IMG/VR virus record: IMGVR_UViG_3300027749_000474
Coordinates: 1-24,279 of that record
Direction: 5' to 3' (one strand)
Length of the DNA stretch: 24,279 nucleotides
Source: a virus
Shown: piece by piece, positions 580-21,038 of the stretch
Layout: each line of letters starts with the position of its first letter
How positions within the stretch are numbered: the stretch's first letter is position 1
Translations under genes and position numbers: made by a program
The notes under the pieces: model-generated
What the model saw: only the letters and a program-made list of their open reading frames with translations
Database searches by the model: none
Told to the model about the DNA's origin: nothing

Positions 580-585
580 TATAGT
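577..585 (+). promoter_or_regulatory. Extended -10 promoter overlapping a stop codon
   Basis: TGATATAGT gives a TGn extension and TATAGT -10 box with no convincing -35. The predicted start, about 7 bases downstream (near 592), coincides with the first base of the hairpin that opens RNA element 1. The TGA of the upstream gene is part of the promoter. Confidence 0.5.
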
Positions 586-590
586 TTTTC

Positions 591-693
591 AACGCTTGGC
601 GGCGTTTTAGAGTAAGCCCTAGACGGGACTCTGCACCTACTCGGTGTCCGCCAACATTCCACAAGAATGAGAGTCTCGCCTAGGGCTTTTTTA
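591..693 (+). ncRNA. Structured RNA element 1 (pseudoknotted, terminator-ended)
   Basis: P1: AACGC (591-595) pairs with GCGTT (602-606), loop TTGGCG (596-601). P2: AGCCCTAGACGGGACTCT (615-632) pairs with 670-687, 17 of 18 positions (one G-U pair, one A-C mismatch), followed by T6. Inside P2: hairpin P3 (CACC 634-637 with GGTG 643-646), then CGCCAA (649-654), the exact complement of the P1 loop, then hairpin P4 (CATTC 655-659 with GAATG 665-669). The stem plus T-run would act as an intrinsic terminator just ahead of the ParB-like gene (ribosome site near 696), so it may be an attenuating leader, a free small RNA of about 100 bases, or both. Element 2 at 4285 has the same plan. Confidence 0.65.
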
Positions 694-3001: not shown

Positions 3002-3405
3002 GTAAAGAAGTTGAATACTGCCCACACTGCCAAGCCAAAATGGTAGAGTACCGCCACACTTTTAACAAAGGGTTAGCCAACGGTTTGTATGAGTTATACG
3101 CTTCAGGCGGTGGCCCCATCAGCTTGCGTGATCTTAAAATTTCTCGCACAGAGTGGACTAACTTTCAAAAGTTACGTTACTGGGAACTGGCCTCCAGAAC
3201 CAGAACCGAGGGCGAATGGGTTCTAACCAATCTTGGGCGTGATTTTATTTTTACTAAAACTGCTATACAAAAATGGGTGTGGACGTATCGTGGAAGTACA
3301 GTACGTTTTGATGGAGACACTGTTTACTTTAATGATATACATGATCCAGTTTTTGAAACAAAACAGGATTACGTTGCCAACTCACAGGCGCGAGGTTACA
3401 GATGA
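2998..3405 (+). CDS. Small phage protein with N-terminal CxxC
   Basis: A 135-residue protein I do not recognise. It opens MSKEVEYCPHCQAKMVEYRH, a CPHC knuckle without an obvious second cysteine pair, so a complete zinc site is not visible. Residues 28-80 (ANGLYELYASGGGPISLRDL then RTEWTNFQKLRYWEL) resemble a small winged-helix-type fold; that is inference from the pattern. It overlaps the helicase stop by ATGA and the primase start by ATGAG, so the three genes are translationally coupled and likely work in one replication operon. Confidence 0.8.
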   Translation: MSKEVEYCPHCQAKMVEYRHTFNKGLANGLYELYASGGGPISLRDLKISRTEWTNFQKLRYWELASRTRTEGEWVLTNLGRDFIFTKTAIQKWVWTYRGSTVRFDGDTVYFNDIHDPVFETKQDYVANSQARGYR

Positions 3406-4280
3406 GCTTTATTGACTTTGCACGTGGCCACGGCGTAGAGATTGACCAGTCTCACCTGTACCCATCCGAACGTATTCGCCGCTGTGGCACAACAGAGAAA
3501 CCACGCTCAACTAACGGCGCCTTCTTTTGGGATGGCGACCGTGGCTGGGTGTTTAATTGGTCAGGAGAAGCAAGAGTGTGCTGGTATGAATCTACACGTC
3601 CATGGACAGACGAAGACAAGCGCGCATGGGCGGCTAAACGTCAGGCGGCTAACTCTGACCGTGATCGCTCATACGAAATGGCCGCAGATCGTGCGGATAT
3701 TCTTTTGCGTACTGCAAAGATGGAAGTGCATCCCTACTTAGAGATCAAAGGCTTTTCGGACATGCAGGGCTATGTGATGGGTGGCAAGTTACTGGTGCCT
3801 ATGCGCAACGTGGTGACTGACAAGTTGCAAGGCTTTCAGGAAATCTATTGGGACATGCCAAACCGCAAGTATGAGAAGAAGATGCTCCACGGTATGCGTG
3901 CTAAGAATGCTGTGCTGTACATGGGCTCCAAAGAGGCGCCAGAGACATGGTTTGTCGAGGGGTATGCCACAGGTTTATCCTTGCACAAAGCCCTGCGTAG
4001 CACTGGCTCTAACGCCGCGGTGGTGGTTTGCTTCTCAGCATCAAACATGGTGCAGGTGGCCAGCCAAGTCAAAGGCGATCGCTATGTGTTCGCTGATAAC
4101 GACGAGAGCAAGACTGGCGAGAAGTCAGCGATCGAGACTGGCCTACCTTGGACGATGGCCGATGAGGTCGGTTACGACGCCAACGACATGCACGACAAGC
4201 TAGGCTTGATGGCAGTTGTAAAGAAAGTTATGGATCTCCGCAAAAAGGTATTGACAAACAAATTAGAAATGTCTGTATAA
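3402..4280 (+). CDS. TOPRIM-domain DNA primase
   Basis: A 292-residue protein with a TOPRIM catalytic core. The glutamate is in WFVEGYATGLSLHKA (E186), and the acidic pair is in YVFADNDESKTG (D232, D234), followed by YDANDMHD (259-266). This is the arrangement of TOPRIM primases that make RNA primers at phage replication forks. The N-terminal 100 residues (FFWDGDRGWVFNWSGEARV) replace the classical zinc finger; no four-cysteine zinc site is seen. Primase and helicase are neighbours in one coupled operon, as in other small phage replication modules. The stop codon TAA (4278-4280) lies inside the -10 box TATAAT of the next promoter. Confidence 0.85.
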   Translation: MSFIDFARGHGVEIDQSHLYPSERIRRCGTTEKPRSTNGAFFWDGDRGWVFNWSGEARVCWYESTRPWTDEDKRAWAAKRQAANSDRDRSYEMAADRADILLRTAKMEVHPYLEIKGFSDMQGYVMGGKLLVPMRNVVTDKLQGFQEIYWDMPNRKYEKKMLHGMRAKNAVLYMGSKEAPETWFVEGYATGLSLHKALRSTGSNAAVVVCFSASNMVQVASQVKGDRYVFADNDESKTGEKSAIETGLPWTMADEVGYDANDMHDKLGLMAVVKKVMDLRKKVLTNKLEMSV

Positions 4281-4281
4281 T
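4251..4281 (+). promoter_or_regulatory. Consensus sigma-70 promoter for RNA element 2
   Basis: TTGACA (4251-4256) and TATAAT (4276-4281) both match the sigma-70 consensus exactly, with a slightly long 19-base spacer. The promoter is embedded in the 3' end of the primase gene, and its -10 box contains the primase stop codon. Transcription would begin near 4288, inside the first hairpin arm of RNA element 2, leaving at least seven pairs of that hairpin. It is the best promoter in the window by consensus. Confidence 0.75.
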
Positions 4282-4284
4282 AAA

Positions 4285-4382
4285 AACTGTTGTAGTCGTG
4301 TACAACAGTTGAAAGCCGTTACTCATGCATTGGCCTCCCCTCAAAGGAGGACACGACCCAGTGCAGTAGTAACGGCTTTTTG
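4285..4382 (+). ncRNA. Structured RNA element 2 (pseudoknotted, terminator-ended)
   Basis: P1: AACTGTTGTA (4285-4294) pairs perfectly with TACAACAGTT (4301-4310), loop GTCGTG (4295-4300). P2: AAGCCGTTACT (4313-4323) pairs perfectly with 4368-4378 and is followed by T5 (4377-4381). P2b: GCATTGG (4327-4333) pairs with CCAGTGC (4358-4364), one G-U. P3: CCTCC (4334-4338) pairs with GGAGG (4346-4350). One base later, CACGAC (4352-4357) is the exact complement of the P1 loop. P3 contains AAAGGAGG, a perfect Shine-Dalgarno-like string locked in a stem. It probably makes a small RNA of about 95 bases. There is no credible open frame. The design matches element 1 at 591. Confidence 0.7.
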
Positions 4383-4634
4383 CATTTCACACGACCGCTG
4401 TATCGGACGCGCACTGGCGGTAGCGATACAGGGACACCTCTACTACGGGATAGATGTTGAGATAGAGGCATGGGTGGCGAAGATAGCGCCCTAACATCGA
4501 ACGGCTGTCGGGTCATGTGGCTCCAGTTAGCAGAAACATGTGAAGGCTTAGCCCCCTGTGGGAGGGCTGAGTCTGTCCACCAGAAAGCAGTCAAACAGGA
4601 ATTAAGAAAGGCTTAATAAGGTAATAAGGAGTAC
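4383..4634 (+). ncRNA. Structured noncoding stretch between RNA element 2 and a terminator
   Basis: About 250 bases with no convincing gene. It holds several stems: CTGTATCG (4398-4405) with CGATACAG (4424-4431), perfect; CCTCTA (4437-4442) with TAGAGG (4463-4468); CATGT (4514-4518) with ACATG (4536-4540); and GGCTTAGCCC (4545-4554) with 4564-4573, ten pairs including two G-U. It could be the body of a longer RNA of about 370 bases formed by read-through from element 2, ending at the terminator at 4635. I recognise no known RNA family in it and no tRNA fold. Confidence 0.45.
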
Positions 4635-4656
4635 AGGGGGGGTGACCCCTTTTTTT
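4635..4656 (+). terminator. Intrinsic terminator
   Basis: AGGGG (4635-4639) pairs with CCCCT (4646-4650), loop GGGTGA-type, followed by a run of T to 4656. A shifted pairing (GGGG 4639-4642 with CCCC 4646-4649) is also possible. It closes the noncoding RNA stretch and insulates it from the promoter at 4669. Confidence 0.75.
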
Positions 4657-4668
4657 AACTATTACCTG

Positions 4669-4706
4669 TAATTTCCTGTTATAGTCGGATCACCACGATG
4701 TTGTGG
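4669..4706 (+). promoter_or_regulatory. Shared-motif promoter with 5' hairpin, glycosyltransferase-like gene
   Basis: TAATTTCCTGTTATAGT (4669-4685): extended -10 TGTTATAGT with the upstream TAATTT block. Seven bases later CCAC (4693-4696) pairs with GTGG (4703-4706) around the 6-base loop GATGTT, so the transcript should start with this stem-loop. The ribosome site GGGAG follows directly. Confidence 0.65.
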
Positions 4707-4718
4707 GAGCAGAAAGAT

Positions 4719-5735
4719 ATGAAAACTTTAATCATTGAATCGTGTGAGAAAAGAATGACGGCGGATGCGGTTACATCGATCGTTCACGTTAAGAACTCGC
4801 TAATTTTGCGAGATTACCTTGGGTGTGATTTTGTCAGCCACGAGTCTGAGATACCGCAGGCTATGGAGAAGAGCTACGACAAGATTATTTGCGCCTACTC
4901 TTCGCCGTACATGAAGTACAACAAGTACCTCGACATACTCAACAACAACCCCAACGCTGAGATGTACTGGCTGGTCAATGACCACGACATCGAGGACAGC
5001 ATCTTGTTGCGCAAGTGGCTCTTGATGAACCACAAGCAGTACCACATGATTTGCAATAACCCACGCGAAGGCTATCGCGGTTGGATCCTGCGCAAGAAGC
5101 TAAACGGATTGACTTTGAACGACTGGATCAAAGACTGGCACACAGTAAACCTGAACACTCTGGTGTTTGACGAGCAGGCGTTTTACAGTACAGCTACGGT
5201 CGATAAGAGCGACATCATCTATTACGGCACGTTCCGTAAACATAGAATTAAAGATATGCTGAATTACAACGGCGTTAACTACGTACTGAGTTCATCTCTA
5301 AAGAACCACCTGAAGTACAAAGACGCTGGAATACAAGCTCGGTTTATTGAGAAGATTATGTGGACGGAAAAAGAGGCTGACATGTTTGAGCCTATTGGAC
5401 TCAGGCTGAAGGACTACAAGTATTCGATTTACCTAGAGGACGAGCATACCCACACAAACTACGCCTTCATGGCCAATCGATTCTATGAGTGTGTGATGAA
5501 TAACGTCTTGATGTTCTACGACAGTCGTTGCAATTTGGTGATCGAGATGAGCGGCTACGCCATCGATCCATTTCAGGTTGTCAAAGACGGTGAAGAGCTA
5601 AAGCAAAAGATGGAGATGCTGGACTCTGACAAGCAGTCTTATCAGCACTACTTAGGCATTCAGCAGTCAAACGCTGAAATCATCAAGTCTGAAAAGGCTT
5701 ACGTACTTCAAACAATTAAAGGAATATTTCAATGA
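4719..5735 (+). CDS. Putative GT-B glycosyltransferase-like phage protein
   Basis: A 338-residue soluble protein. I chose the ATG at 4719 (MKTLIIESCEKRM) because GGGAG lies 9 bases upstream; an ATG at 4698 sits in the leader hairpin loop. The layout suggests two Rossmann-like halves. The first has KTLIIESC, YDKIICAYSSPYMKYN and AEMYWLVNDHDIED; the second has DIIYYGTFRKHRIKDM, NYVLSSS and a late EDEHTHTNYAFMANRFYE segment, which recalls the donor-binding end of GT-B enzymes. Some phage GT-B enzymes glycosylate modified bases in viral DNA. No catalytic residue can be assigned with certainty and no base-modifying enzyme is in the window, so this is a moderate-confidence fold guess. It has its own promoter after a terminator. 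Confidence 0.6.
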   Translation: MKTLIIESCEKRMTADAVTSIVHVKNSLILRDYLGCDFVSHESEIPQAMEKSYDKIICAYSSPYMKYNKYLDILNNNPNAEMYWLVNDHDIEDSILLRKWLLMNHKQYHMICNNPREGYRGWILRKKLNGLTLNDWIKDWHTVNLNTLVFDEQAFYSTATVDKSDIIYYGTFRKHRIKDMLNYNGVNYVLSSSLKNHLKYKDAGIQARFIEKIMWTEKEADMFEPIGLRLKDYKYSIYLEDEHTHTNYAFMANRFYECVMNNVLMFYDSRCNLVIEMSGYAIDPFQVVKDGEELKQKMEMLDSDKQSYQHYLGIQQSNAEIIKSEKAYVLQTIKGIFQ

Positions 5736-7981: not shown

Positions 7982-8123
7982 AAACACAAGTATACAAACT
8001 AAGGGTGCGTATTAGGGTTTTCCTTAGAAAAATAGTCTGTTTAGGGTGTTTCAAACTCTAATTTCCTGTTAACATTCCTTTACCGCAACAGAAAGCGGGT
8101 TCATCAACTTAAAGGAAATTATC
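7982..8123 (+). promoter_or_regulatory. Intergenic region with shared-motif promoter and 5' hairpin
   Basis: No gene. CTAAGG (from about 7999) and CCTTAG (about 8022) can pair across a large loop, a weak terminator candidate for the preceding operon. TAATTTCCTGTTAACAT at 8059-8075 is the fourth rightward copy of the phage promoter motif, with a weaker -10 (TAACAT). Seven bases on, CCGC (8083-8086) pairs with GCGG (8095-8098). The ribosome site AAAGGAA precedes the next ATG at 8124. Confidence 0.55.
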
Positions 8124-11403: not shown

Positions 11404-11425
11404 TGAAAACACCTAGTAAATAATC

Positions 11426-11471
11426 TAATTTTCTGTTATAGTTCCTATCACTGCAATGACGCAGGTTTAGG
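11426..11471 (+). promoter_or_regulatory. Shared-motif promoter with 5' hairpin and SD pairing
   Basis: TAATTTTCTGTTATAGT (11426-11442), extended -10. Eight bases on, CTGC (11451-11454) pairs with GCAG (11461-11464) around the 6-base loop AATGAC. CCTA (11444-11447) can also pair with TAGG (11468-11471), part of the ribosome site TAGGAG, so translation of the 11480 gene may be tuned. The 21-base leader core is 19/21 identical to that at 12094. Confidence 0.65.
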
Positions 11472-11479
11472 AGAATCAA

Positions 11480-12073
11480 ATGGCAACAAACTTTTCACCC
11501 ATCATTGAAAATCCAGTAGCTTATGAGAATGCCGTCAAAAGCTACATCATTGGTAACGCACAAAAAACATGGCGTGCTAAAACTGAGCGTGCTAGTGAGA
11601 TTGAAAGCGCTTTGGTAGTTGGTATGCTTCACAACGATCGTGGCGGATTCAGAGGCTATACCGACGACTTCATGGGTTCCATGGCTCAAGCCTTCTACAC
11701 TTATGGCAAGCTGTCCCCTAAGCAGTGCGAAGCCATCCTAAAGGGCATAGACGCCCGTGCCGCACGCAAAGCAGAATGGGCTGACAAGAAGGCCGCTATC
11801 GACGCTACACGCGACTTCGTAGGCACCGTAGGCGAAAAGATCACCCTTACCCTCAAAGTCGTTCACATTGTCGAACTGGACGGTAGCTTTGGCACCGTGT
11901 ACATCAACATCTGCGAAGACGCAAACAACAACACGATCATCTACAAAGGCAACGCCAAGGGCTTCCCAGAGAAGGGCGAGACTGCCACCATCACAGCTAC
12001 CGTAAAAGAGCACGGTGTACGTAACGGCGTCAAGCAAACCGTTATCCAGCGCCCCAAGCTTGCAACACTCTAA
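11480..12073 (+). CDS. Phage protein with C-terminal OB-fold-like domain
   Basis: A 197-residue protein. The N-terminal half (residues 1-100) is helical and contains YTYGKLSPKQCEAILKGIDA. The C-terminal half (about 110-197) alternates beta strands: VGTVGEKITLTLKVVHIVEL, DGSFGTVYINICED, GNAKGFPEKGETATITATVK, then EHGVRNGVKQTVIQRPK. The ending is like OB-fold domains of phage and plasmid nucleic-acid-binding proteins, so single-stranded DNA or RNA binding is plausible but unproven. It has its own strong promoter at 11426 and ribosome site TAGGAG, and is probably well expressed. Its stop lies inside the next promoter motif. Confidence 0.75.
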   Translation: MATNFSPIIENPVAYENAVKSYIIGNAQKTWRAKTERASEIESALVVGMLHNDRGGFRGYTDDFMGSMAQAFYTYGKLSPKQCEAILKGIDARAARKAEWADKKAAIDATRDFVGTVGEKITLTLKVVHIVELDGSFGTVYINICEDANNNTIIYKGNAKGFPEKGETATITATVKEHGVRNGVKQTVIQRPKLATL

Positions 12074-12108
12074 TTTTCTGTTATACTGTCATTACTGCAA
12101 TCAAGCAG
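12071..12108 (+). promoter_or_regulatory. Shared-motif promoter with 5' hairpin
   Basis: TAATTTTCTGTTATACT (12071-12087), overlapping the stop of the OB-like gene. Seven bases later CTGC (12095-12098) pairs with GCAG (12105-12108) around AATCAA. The stem and flanks match the 11426 copy; only the loop differs (GAC versus CAA). GTTTAG follows, then the ribosome site AAAGGA. Confidence 0.65.
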
Positions 12109-16256: not shown

Positions 16257-19200
16257 GTGGCTGACAACCAATCCGTTCCCATGCCCCCACACATCAAAGC
16301 AGAGCTAGCAAGGCTACGTGCTCTTATGGTGCCTGATGCTGAAGCCTACCGCCGACGTGAGATCGGATCTAAGCGTATGGAGGAGGAGGCTAAGAAGATA
16401 CAGCCTCTGCGCCCATTGAGTGCGGCAGATACTGGCGACCAGTATCCATTGGCGGCAGAGGGCGGATCGATCAGGCGCTTTGATGTAGGTGGCTCCAACA
16501 GCATCAGCTTGGATGACTTAAATGAGGCGCTTAGAGATCGAGCACCTACTATTCCTGAGCAGTTCAACAGATACATAGCGCCGCATATCCAACGAGGCTT
16601 AGACGCCATGTTGCCGTTCCGCCAGTTGGCGCAGAAGACATTCGAGCGAAACGTGTACAACCCTTTGAATGAGTCTGTAATCAATAACATAAGCTCGGCG
16701 ATTAAAACATCAGGTACAAATGCAAACGATGTCAACGATGCCAAAATTCACATAGCTAATGCGGCCAGAAAAGCGATTGGCATGGAGCCACGGCCTGTTG
16801 AGTTTGATGCGCAGAAAGCACTGGGCAATATTAACGAAGGTGAGTTTGACAGGCAGTACGTTGACATGGACAAACGCCACGCACAACGTCTTGAAGAGTT
16901 AAAGAAACTAATAGCACAGCGCAAAGCCAACGGCGGTCAAGTAGACATGGACAGGATGCGCCTTGAGCTGATGAACAGGAAGTCCAAAGGCGGTGTAGCT
17001 CACCTTGCTATCGGAGGCCAAGGCCCACGCAATTGGGTGAGCGGATCCGTTGAGCAAGTCTTGCATCCATTGAAGCAAAGAACAGCGGTGGGAAGCGACC
17101 CTGCTGAGACTTTGGCAGAGATGAACCAAAAGTGGACACCAGAAGCAATCGAGCAAGTAGCACAGACACAGCCCAATGTCCGCGAGATGATTCCTCGCCA
17201 AAAGACAGAGCTAGAGCACAAGGTTCACCTGAACAAATGGATTCAGAGCAACTTAGGCAACTACATCAAAAAGCAGATGGCCACACAAAACGATCCAATC
17301 CGCAACCTAGCGGAGCAAGGCATCGTCCACATTCCTAGCGAACAAGTTGGAATAAACAGATACAAAGCTGGCGAACATCGGACTACTCATGGTGGTGAGA
17401 GCTTTGGCAAGTCAGAAGAGGCAAAGGCTTGGGAAGATGCCGCAGACGTAGCGATTACTCCTACATCGATAGAGAAGTTACACAAGCGATTCCAAGAACC
17501 TTGGATGGAGAAGGCTGACCCAAGCACTAAGTTGTTACATGCAAGCAGTAACATGCAAGCCAGTAGTTTGGGCTTTGATCACTTGGTGGATGTATTAAAA
17601 GAAGACTTAGCCAGTGGGCGTATTCGTCCTGAGCAGTTGAATAAGGTCAGCATTGAGCAGGCTGTACGTCGTGCACATGAGTACGATCAAGAGAAGAAGA
17701 AGGCTATGGCTGAGACGGCTCTCAAGGCTACCGAAGGCATGGCAGTCCACAAAGAGTATCCAGAAGGTTACAAGTGGATTGAGTTGGCCAAGCCAAAGAT
17801 TGATGTCAACAAACCATTGCCAGAAGGATTTAGATGGGTTGAGCCAAAAAGTGGTTATGAGCGCTTAGAAGGCCCAAGCATTCTTGATCCTCAAAGAACC
17901 CGTAGATACCTTGGTGAAACAAAAGAAGAAGCCCTCAAGGTGGCGCATGAAAAATCAACGATTGGTGCTGAAGATGAAAAAGCTCTTGAGGAAGCCCTCA
18001 AGTACGAAGGCAACACCATGGGTCATTGCGTTGGTGGATATTGCCCTGACGTGCTGGAAGGCCGTACACGCATCTTCAGCTTGCGTGATGCCAATAATGA
18101 ACCACACGTAACGATTGAGGTTAGACCTAACCAAGCGCGAAGCAAGTACGAAACTGATTGGTTCACAAGTCAACCTGAAGAATTGCAAGATGCAATTACA
18201 AAGCAAGCGCTTGCTGAGCACGAGGCGACAAAACAAAAGCGTACCCCAGAAGAGGATAGATTTACTTGGGGGCAGGCACTAAGCAACGCCATCAAGTCCC
18301 ATATGGGTGAGGTGCCACAACAGATTGTTCAGATCAAAGGCAAGGGCAATAAGAAGCCCAAGAAGGATTACATTCCATTTGTTCAAGACTTTGTAAAGAG
18401 TGGTAATTGGTCTGACGTTGGTGACATACATAACGCTGAATTGCACAAGTGGGGCAAAAGATATTTGAACAAAGAAGATATAGAAGCTTTAACACCTGAA
18501 GAAGAAAGCGCATTCGCTAGTAGGAATCTAAACAAAGCGAATGGCGGGATAATACGTAAAGCCGAAGGAGGCGCTGTGAACCCATTTGACTATGAGAACC
18601 CTGAGCATGTAAGTACAGTTGCTGGGCATGTATCCAAGCACAAAGACTTTAAAGATCTGCCTGAAGCCCATACACGCTTAGGCGAAGTGCTTTCCTCTGG
18701 TAGCTACAAGCACATGGAAGACCCACGCGTACAGATGGGGCTACGTAAGGCTGGCCACAACTCTTACTACACACAAGAGAAGACTGGCAAGAAGCTCAAC
18801 AAGATGGTGATCAACAAAGCCGTCGGCGGTGCTGTGCCATCAATGAATCAAATGCGTGCAGAGCTAATAGGCAAGAAGCCTGTAAGCCTGTCTGACTTAT
18901 CTACCATCGGTGCTAACGAAGCGCCTAGCATGAACGTCAAGGCTTATGTCCCACCATCTGGCGGTGAACTACCTGTAGGTGGTGTGAGCATGGGTGACCA
19001 GCCATTGCCTATCGGCGGCATTGATATGAGCCAACAACAAGGCGGCCAACAGTTAATGCCTGCTGGCATGGCTCCACCACAAGGAGCGCCACAAGGCCAG
19101 CCCCCACAAGCTGGTGGTATGCCCTCCCCTTTGGGCGCAGGAGCACCATCTCCACAGCCACCAAGCAACATCTTGCAGATGACTAAGCAAGGGCAAGCAT

Positions 19201-21038
19201 TGAACGCTATGAGCCCACCACAGGCGCCTCCACGCATGGCTGTGGGCGGATCTGTACCTGCACCATACAAGATTGGTGGAAGTGACAACATGGCTCCAGT
19301 AGACAATGGATGGAAGCCAGACAACGGTGTTACTACATTTAATATCGATAACGTACAGCAAATTGCTAAGGGTGGTTCTATTGAGAAGATGAAGCAAGAG
19401 ATGAAGTCCAAGGGCACGCCATGTATGACGCATGACCATGGATATGCTGATGGAGGGCGTGCAGGAAAAAAGTCTTCTAAGGAACCAAAGAGCACGGTTA
19501 AGGCGTACAAATTGTTCCGCGTACACAAGAAGCATCCCGGCAAGTTGTTCCCTCTTTTTGTCAACGCCAACGATCCCGTAGAGATGAACAAATGGGTGGA
19601 CGCTCAAGAGGGTGAGATGGCTGGTAGCAAGGTGAAGAGCAAGATTGGCCCGCTGGCGTATCGACCCGGTTGGCACGCTGGTGATCTACCCGTCGCTACC
19701 CACATCGGTGAGAAGTCTGACCCTGAACTAACAGCACCAGACGTCCGTCCCCACAACCACGTATGGGCTGAGGTCGAGATGCCTAACGATGTCGATTGGC
19801 AAACAGAAGCCAATGAGCGTGGCATGAACCCCAAGGGCAAGCTGATCGCACGCGAAGCACACATCACTGACCAGATCCCCAAGGGCGGTCACTACAGATA
19901 CAAGACCAATTCCAACATGACAGGCAACTGGCTGATTGGTGGAGCGATGAAGGTCAACCGTATATTGCATGACAAGGAAGTCAAAGCAATCAACAAGGCG
20001 GCAAAGGCAAAAGATCTGCCACGTATGCAGAAACAAAACTTGGCTGACTATGGATTTAAAGAAGGCGGATCGGCAAGCCCTACGCAGAAGAGCCCAGACA
20101 AGTTCAGACCTAAAGTCACAAAGGCATCGGAGGCGTTGGGTAAGCATGAGGGAAAGCATTTGAAGGTTACACAGTCTGATCGCACAAAGGTGGGTGGCGG
20201 GTTCCTCGGAGGCCCGGGGTTTTCTGGTCTGCAACACCTTTACCCTTCACACAAAGACGTCGCGTGGGGCGTGAACTCATCAGGCGCCGCCTCCAAGATC
20301 GCTAACGCCAATGCCGCTCACCCAGAGGGTGATGTGTTGTGGTCTACATTGCTCGGCGCTCCTAACCAACACACATCAAACCAAATGGTGTTTGATATGC
20401 TGATGAAGCAGTTCAAGAGTGGTATTAAGTCTGGCAAGATGACGCCTGAATTGCGTGATCGCATCAATGCTCAATTGGCCATGGCGGCAGACAGCGAAGG
20501 CAAGCCAATCTTTTCTAACGCAGACATTGCAAGCAAGAACTTCTTTAAAAACCTCAATACTTTCGATCAACGTCGCGTTATGGCTGACTTAATGGGCGGT
20601 AAAGCTGTGGGTGGTAAGAAGGGGCAAATCTTGAACTACGACAAGACAGTGGCCGACACAACAGAGCCTGAGTTGCTTGGTGCACCTACACACGCAATTG
20701 GCCCTCGCCTATTTCAGTTGAGTGGACAGCGTTCTGTACAACCAGATCTAAACCCAGCATTCCCTCACATGTTGCATGGAGAAGACTTAGGTCAGATGTT
20801 CCATCCAGTTCCACGTCAGATCATGTTGCCTGAGTTTCATGGCAAGATCAAACAAGCAAAAGGACGTGATGTTGGCTTTATGGACTTAACACGCAATACA
20901 CCGTCACAGCATTTGTCTGAAGAATTTCTCACACACTTGCAAAGACATGGATATAAAAAAGGCGGCAAAGTGAACCTATCCACAAATATGGATACCATTA
21001 ACTTAGAATTAAGCCGCAGAACAAAGAAAGCTAAATGA
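16257..21038 (+). CDS. Large polyvalent protein with PcfJ-like domain (1593 aa)
   Basis: Starts at GTG 16257 with GAAGGAA 8 bases upstream (MADNQSVPMPPHIKAELARL). Domains in order: an N-terminal helical part (1-225); a PcfJ-like domain (about 560-690) with EGNTMGHCVGGYCPDVLEG (H590, C591); a Pro/Gly/Gln-rich linker (about 925-1000); a conserved module at 1070-1255 (TVKAYKLFRVHKKHPGKLFP, GPLAYRPGWHAGDLPVATHI, YRYKTNSNMTGNWLIGGAMK); and a C-terminal domain (1280-1550) with FSGLQHLYPSHKDVAWGVN and ending GGKVNLSTNMDTINLELSRR. This fits the class of large polyvalent phage proteins that may enter the cell with the DNA. Gly-Gly motifs recur at domain borders. It lies between TerL and portal, overlapping the latter. 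Confidence 0.75.
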   Translation: MADNQSVPMPPHIKAELARLRALMVPDAEAYRRREIGSKRMEEEAKKIQPLRPLSAADTGDQYPLAAEGGSIRRFDVGGSNSISLDDLNEALRDRAPTIPEQFNRYIAPHIQRGLDAMLPFRQLAQKTFERNVYNPLNESVINNISSAIKTSGTNANDVNDAKIHIANAARKAIGMEPRPVEFDAQKALGNINEGEFDRQYVDMDKRHAQRLEELKKLIAQRKANGGQVDMDRMRLELMNRKSKGGVAHLAIGGQGPRNWVSGSVEQVLHPLKQRTAVGSDPAETLAEMNQKWTPEAIEQVAQTQPNVREMIPRQKTELEHKVHLNKWIQSNLGNYIKKQMATQNDPIRNLAEQGIVHIPSEQVGINRYKAGEHRTTHGGESFGKSEEAKAWEDAADVAITPTSIEKLHKRFQEPWMEKADPSTKLLHASSNMQASSLGFDHLVDVLKEDLASGRIRPEQLNKVSIEQAVRRAHEYDQEKKKAMAETALKATEGMAVHKEYPEGYKWIELAKPKIDVNKPLPEGFRWVEPKSGYERLEGPSILDPQRTRRYLGETKEEALKVAHEKSTIGAEDEKALEEALKYEGNTMGHCVGGYCPDVLEGRTRIFSLRDANNEPHVTIEVRPNQARSKYETDWFTSQPEELQDAITKQALAEHEATKQKRTPEEDRFTWGQALSNAIKSHMGEVPQQIVQIKGKGNKKPKKDYIPFVQDFVKSGNWSDVGDIHNAELHKWGKRYLNKEDIEALTPEEESAFASRNLNKANGGIIRKAEGGAVNPFDYENPEHVSTVAGHVSKHKDFKDLPEAHTRLGEVLSSGSYKHMEDPRVQMGLRKAGHNSYYTQEKTGKKLNKMVINKAVGGAVPSMNQMRAELIGKKPVSLSDLSTIGANEAPSMNVKAYVPPSGGELPVGGVSMGDQPLPIGGIDMSQQQGGQQLMPAGMAPPQGAPQGQPPQAGGMPSPLGAGAPSPQPPSNILQMTKQGQALNAMSPPQAPPRMAVGGSVPAPYKIGGSDNMAPVDNGWKPDNGVTTFNIDNVQQIAKGGSIEKMKQEMKSKGTPCMTHDHGYADGGRAGKKSSKEPKSTVKAYKLFRVHKKHPGKLFPLFVNANDPVEMNKWVDAQEGEMAGSKVKSKIGPLAYRPGWHAGDLPVATHIGEKSDPELTAPDVRPHNHVWAEVEMPNDVDWQTEANERGMNPKGKLIAREAHITDQIPKGGHYRYKTNSNMTGNWLIGGAMKVNRILHDKEVKAINKAAKAKDLPRMQKQNLADYGFKEGGSASPTQKSPDKFRPKVTKASEALGKHEGKHLKVTQSDRTKVGGGFLGGPGFSGLQHLYPSHKDVAWGVNSSGAASKIANANAAHPEGDVLWSTLLGAPNQHTSNQMVFDMLMKQFKSGIKSGKMTPELRDRINAQLAMAADSEGKPIFSNADIASKNFFKNLNTFDQRRVMADLMGGKAVGGKKGQILNYDKTVADTTEPELLGAPTHAIGPRLFQLSGQRSVQPDLNPAFPHMLHGEDLGQMFHPVPRQIMLPEFHGKIKQAKGRDVGFMDLTRNTPSQHLSEEFLTHLQRHGYKKGGKVNLSTNMDTINLELSRRTKKAK

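Follow-up and report, generated by a model that had tools for sequence, protein, structure and literature searches.

A candidate autonomously transcribed, pseudoknotted phage RNA between a primase gene and a noncoding RNA

The locus downstream of the primase gene

The stretch of DNA analysed here (the window; 24,279 nucleotides, positions 1 to 24,279 of IMG/VR virus record IMGVR_UViG_3300027749_000474) carries two structured elements, of which element 2 (RNA A) lies between a primase gene and a noncoding RNA, RNA B (Table 1). The promoter predicted for element 2 overlaps the stop codon of the primase ORF, and it was missed by our consensus promoter scan because that scan admitted only spacers of 16–18 nt. 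RNA B probably extends to a terminator near 4635–4658. Further along the window, a repeated motif, TAATTTyCTGTTA(t)AgT, stands ahead of genes at 4666–4685, approximately 8057–8076, 11422–11443 and 12068–12088, and is possibly a phage-specific promoter; an ORF of 1593 aa that adjoins the terminase (16257–21038) has a short PcfJ-like match.

Table 1. Features of elements 1 and 2 and of their surroundings in the window
Feature	Position	Strand	Description
Primase ORF	3402–4280		Directly upstream of element 2; PHROG DNA primase
Predicted sigma70 promoter	4251–4281	+	TTGACA 4251–4256, 19-nt spacer, TATAAT 4276–4281
Element 2 RNA	4285–4381	+	About 97 nt; predicted own promoter and terminator
P1 hairpin	4285–4310	+	AACTGTTGTA-GTCGTG-TACAACAGTT; loop GTCGTG 4295–4300
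P1 loop-side pairing stretch	4295–4301	+	GTCGTGT
P2 terminator hairpin	4312–4381	+	With U-tract
P2 lower stem	4315–4323/4368–4376		Optional A:U extension 4312–4314/4377–4379
P2 internal loop	4324–4325/4366–4367		2x2, conserved
Upper P2 stem (P2b)	4326–4333/4358–4365
P3 hairpin	4334–4350	+	CCTCC-CCTCAAA-GGAGG, inside P2
Pseudoknot strand	4351–4357	+	ACACGAC; between P3 and the P2b 3' arm, abuts 4358
Element 2 terminator U-tract	4377–4381		TTTTT
Second copy of pseudoknot strand	4389–4395	+	ACACGAC, complete; just 3' of the terminator
RNA B	4396–4513	+	Rfam RF02932 Betaproteobacteria-1, 103.2 bits, E 8.8e-19
Element 1	580–692	+	RNA approximately 588–693; 19-member alignment
Element 1 -10 box	580–585	+	TATAGT
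Element 1 P1	591–606
Element 1 P2 terminator	615–692
Element 1 PK1	596–602/648–654
Element 1 PK2	610–614/638–642

On re-reading the sequence, the coordinates and letters that a sequence-only reading had given for element 2 were borne out, including the complement CACGAC of the P1 loop at 4352–4357, one base past P3 and within the terminator stem. That reading had understated the match at 6 nt, as the full match covers 7 nt (GTCGTGT/ACACGAC). The predicted fold has an energy of -49.6 kcal/mol, with a z score of -8.7 against 200 dinucleotide shuffles. Rfam 15 gave no match at 4285–4382, either at the gathering threshold or at E<=1; the RF02932 model does not reach element 2, its match beginning at 4396, past the terminator, and the GOLLD and ROOL models did not match element 2.

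Comparative support for the loop–strand pairing

A search that began with the primase protein and continued with a 15-homologue alignment gathered relatives at 80 viral loci and 23 loci from bacterial genomes. Many of these primase loci carry TTGACA-N18/19-TATAAT and an RNA of 97–154 nt with a terminator directly 3' of the gene, the set of relatives at this locus having been chosen by presence of the promoter. The RNAs sort into group I, which resembles that of the window, group II, which forms the majority and carries an additional hairpin, P4, group III (approximately 150 nt) and a few others. The sequence-only reading had put forward selection on the fold, with the loop–strand pairing as part of it, and had named compensatory substitutions in related phages as the check; such changes proved abundant. 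In group I (11 relatives with the same upstream gene), all 77 cells of the pseudoknot alignment were standard-paired, 20 cells were altered on both sides, and compensatory changes fell at four of the seven positions. The covariation value of 0.70 compares with 0.135 after shuffling and at most 0.22 when the strands were slid. In group II, 89% of cells were paired and 41 were altered on both sides, several of the misfits being one-base alignment shifts, and support in group III was less clear. An all-against-all complement test was too weak because the interiors of relatives share sequence, and column counts and an anchored test were used instead; kinship among the phages is only partly removed in the permutation tests, which can inflate significance.

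An independent set was obtained from IMG/VR with the DNA pattern TTACWCATGC-N27-57-GCAGTWGTAA, built solely on the P2 internal-loop motif, which the scan therefore imposes on its own members. At least 120 stretches matched, where a rough estimate that assumes a size for the collection gives about 11 by chance. Among the matches listed, a terminator T-tract was present in 111 of 112 distinct stretches, and the exact complement of the loop 7-mer lay inside P2 in 82 of the 105 elements whose loop could be placed, loops being placed from the P1 arm alone; the corresponding frequencies were 1.2% on the interiors of other elements and 0.11% on shuffled interiors. Most of the 23 failures were anchoring errors, since the complement is visible once the loop is correctly placed, and one (L199) was a false positive. 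The set contains at least 25 distinct loop 7-mers, in which positions 1, 2 and 4 (GTxG) are nearly fixed and positions 3, 5 and 7 vary freely. A plain terminator whose loop match arose by chance had to be weighed, since each 6-nt match is roughly a 1% event (50/4096), as the sequence-only reading had fairly estimated, but the 82 exact 7-nt matches and the complete pairing in group I rule this explanation out, and we regard it as scarcely credible. Well over a hundred other phages share, by sequence comparison, a design in which the letters differ and the pairing is preserved.

Among the matches listed, the lower P2 pairs of 107 relatives comprised 474 Watson–Crick, 58 G-U and 0 A-C cells, and selection therefore acts on the plus-strand RNA; this asymmetry rules out a DNA hairpin or an antisense RNA. 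The comparison as a whole shows a predicted sense-strand RNA composed of a sigma70-type start, P1, a 7-bp pseudoknot and a terminator.

Covariation by itself fits pairing within and between molecules alike, and is thus compatible with loops and strands of different molecules joining into dimers or larger assemblies, like the bridges of GOLLD and ROOL (PMC12286853). The geometry bears on this point. The loop lies approximately 13 nt from P2 and the strand approximately 19–20 nt from the foot of P2, and the loop-to-P2 length increases where the strand lies further from the P2 base (Pearson 0.65; Spearman 0.43, p 0.008, distinct value pairs), although long-arm members are few and outliers, mostly misparsed group III elements, were left out. 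Because the P1-linker segments lengthen together with the P2 stems, docking inside one molecule is favoured; intermolecular pairing would not need such a correlation, and we consider it improbable. The A-tract before P2 is probably unpaired in the docked form predicted here.

Predicted transcription of element 2 and RNA B

Among the matches listed of the pattern set, a TAnnnT box ends 5–6 nt ahead of P1, and promoters scoring at least 10/12 were found in 49% of elements versus 0.8% after shuffling, an approximately 60-fold excess. At a score of at least 9/12, promoters stood upstream of RNA A in 72% of cases, and no promoter-like site of that score lay between the terminator and RNA B in any of the 108 elements among the matches listed. 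The 450 nt 3' of element 2 are usually noncoding and alike from phage to phage; one single-linkage similarity cluster takes in 134 of the 160 downstream stretches among the matches listed. Several noncoding RNA families of approximately 250–450 nt, seemingly unrelated to one another, trail element 2, at 4389–4660 in the window and in loci L032, L042, L050, L192, L213 and L224; RF02932 was the only family that Rfam recognised among the downstream RNAs scanned. RF02932 is also found directly 3' of primase without RNA A, at several loci of bacterial genomes as well as in Acidovorax phage AP1 (loci L113, L115, L119, L126 and L131 have this arrangement), and RNA A thus looks like a module added ahead of RNA B.

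We propose, as the reading that we judge on balance probable, that element 2 is a structured phage RNA transcribed from its own promoter, and that its terminator controls how often transcription continues into the RNA that follows. The transcript would start at the sigma70-type promoter and its first nucleotides would fold as P1, which may fold back along P2 and dock through the 7-bp loop–strand pairing within one molecule. Most transcripts would end at P2, yielding a compact small RNA as the main product, and a minority would continue into RNA B, itself promoterless; such read-through is suggested by the absence of a promoter between the two RNAs. RNA A may accordingly be termed the first half of a noncoding cassette of two RNAs. 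The pseudoknot would serve as a structural lock in which most letters can drift, and the conserved P2 internal loop (TTACWCATGC/GCAGTWGTAA) is a likely candidate site for a conserved host factor. The upstream operon could be an alternative source of RNA B transcription, as where RF02932 follows primase without RNA A.

The absence of a promoter between terminator and RNA B would equally suit a cis-acting leader or attenuator, in which the folding of P1, pseudoknot and P2 sets read-through, into RNA B for element 2 and into the replication operon for element 1, with the short RNA as a by-product. In the copies of element 1 that were read, the terminator is followed by an RBS and ATG within approximately 15–25 nt, and in locus L241 an element-2-type RNA stands immediately before an ATG, both of which fit such a role. 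The second copy of the pseudoknot strand offers the loop another partner; in relatives, partial copies after the terminator were more frequent than in permutation controls (43/70 versus 21.7 expected), an excess possibly inflated by phage relatedness, which suggests that the copy may be a competing partner for the P1 loop. Loop pairing with RNA B past its first 60 nt showed no excess. However, we found no antiterminator pairing that would exclude the terminator, with which the pseudoknot is compatible on paper. The neighbour genes, late ones among them, are unrelated: they include YqaJ, RusA, primase and a DNA methylase besides terminase, scaffold/capsid, T7-type capsid assembly and major capsid. 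We hold attenuation to be plausible, though not what we would expect.

A trans-acting regulator or decoy, a stable RNA that would target a host protein or RNA, or block a defence system, without RNA B, would account for the predicted own promoter and terminator, the compact fold and the occurrence at unrelated loci in a single copy per phage (one group I copy in each of the 15 searched records with a match). The group I pattern occurred in 0 of 401 Burkholderiaceae genomes, which disfavours a host origin of element 2 and fits a trans-acting role. The near-constant adjacency to RNA B would be left unexplained by that role, to which we give real but limited credence. The data separate neither attenuation nor a purely trans-acting function from the gated read-through that we prefer. 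More speculatively, and in our view rather unlikely as a whole, a mobile protein-free two-RNA cassette may spread among unrelated phages and act in trans in host takeover or phage competition; in it, RNA A, a docked pseudoknot with diversifying letters, would precede any one of several kinds of large RNA B, and its loop could pair either with its own strand or with the first part of RNA B.

Element 1, known systems and carriers

The loop TTGGCG of element 1 and its complement CGCCAA, described by the sequence-only reading, were confirmed, and their pairing covaries among the 18 further distinct relatives found in other phages. PK1 was paired in 100% and PK2 in 95.6% of cells, with double changes at five pairs; PK1 covaries at one position (TTGGCGG/CCGCCAA to TTGGCAG/CTGCCAA), and PK2, which joins the P3 loop with the linker before P2, at four. 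Element 1 has no Rfam match. The same architecture had been claimed for both elements: the -10 box, P1, the loop-to-terminator pseudoknot and the terminator are indeed shared, but element 1 has an extra hairpin and PK2. A second pseudoknot of the element 1 type in element 2 was rejected, as matches between an element's own linker and loop were, in groups I and II, no more frequent than cross matches. The contexts differ as well, element 1 standing like a leader before a start codon (in the window directly before the RBS of a ParB-like ORF at 705) and element 2 before the noncoding RNA RF02932. By eye and without statistics, the marine phages BS5, HS2 and Pq0 combine the P2 motif of element 2 with an element-1-like linker pairing; since these members mix both designs, common descent of the two elements is plausible on sequence grounds.

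RNAs of the element 2 type were undescribed in the literature searched, a coverage that leaves out most subscription journals. The put RNA of phage HK022, approximately 70 nt with two stem-loops in an elaborate fold, follows an early promoter and acts on termination (PMC9378689). Like put, element 2 consists of two stem-loops by a promoter, P1 lying within a few nucleotides of the predicted start and P2 following; unlike put, which has no intrinsic terminator (PMC9378689), element 2 ends in one, and it has a loop-to-second-stem pseudoknot with drifting letters, which is not described for put. IsrK of Gifsy-1 is a phage locus at which one promoter gives rise both to a short sRNA that ends at a terminator and to a read-through transcript (PMC4825925). 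Element 2 resembles it in predicted arrangement (promoter, putatively leaky terminator, promoterless downstream unit); the read-through product of IsrK is an mRNA, and the downstream unit of element 2 is a noncoding RNA. RF02932, also found without element 2, is a distinct RNA of the same noncoding block. GOLLD and ROOL, which form multimeric cages with covarying bridges (PMC12286853), are likewise phage-borne structured noncoding RNAs with covarying pseudoknots or kissing loops, but many GOLLD RNAs exceed 800 nt (PMC12286853), as against approximately 100 nt for element 2. ToxI of type III toxin–antitoxin systems is also a small pseudoknotted RNA, but has repeats beside a ribonuclease toxin gene; Pfam and PHROGs scans of the element 2 neighbours, the upstream primase and a downstream ORF (4698–5735) without a match, revealed no toxin. 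Element 2 represents a structured RNA class in well over 100 phage contigs, with compensatory pseudoknot changes, that is new to Rfam 15 and to the literature searched; conserved blocks of noncoding RNA, irrespective of the genes around them, are present in both freshwater and marine phages.

BLAST of single elements against named phages gave almost no matches because the letters diverge. One named carrier is Siphoviridae sp. ctpbd312 (MW202545), with a group II element; directly upstream of that element, at approximately 5000–5700, lies a run that reads like several tRNA genes (locus L132). Expression and function are directly testable, since cultured carriers exist in the Pseudoalteromonas phages BS5, HS2 and Pq0. 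Vibrio phage 1.131.O matches BS5 across RNA B; ahead of that match, a similar hairpin–pseudoknot–terminator (GTGAAAG/CTTTCAC) that lacks the P2 motif can be read by eye. Compared with BS5, HS2 (L313) has an insertion of approximately 790 nt near the end of the block (1015–1808). The int-alpA RNA (RF02996) was also observed in relatives of the phage studied here, at L011:47-114 and L108:2355-2422.
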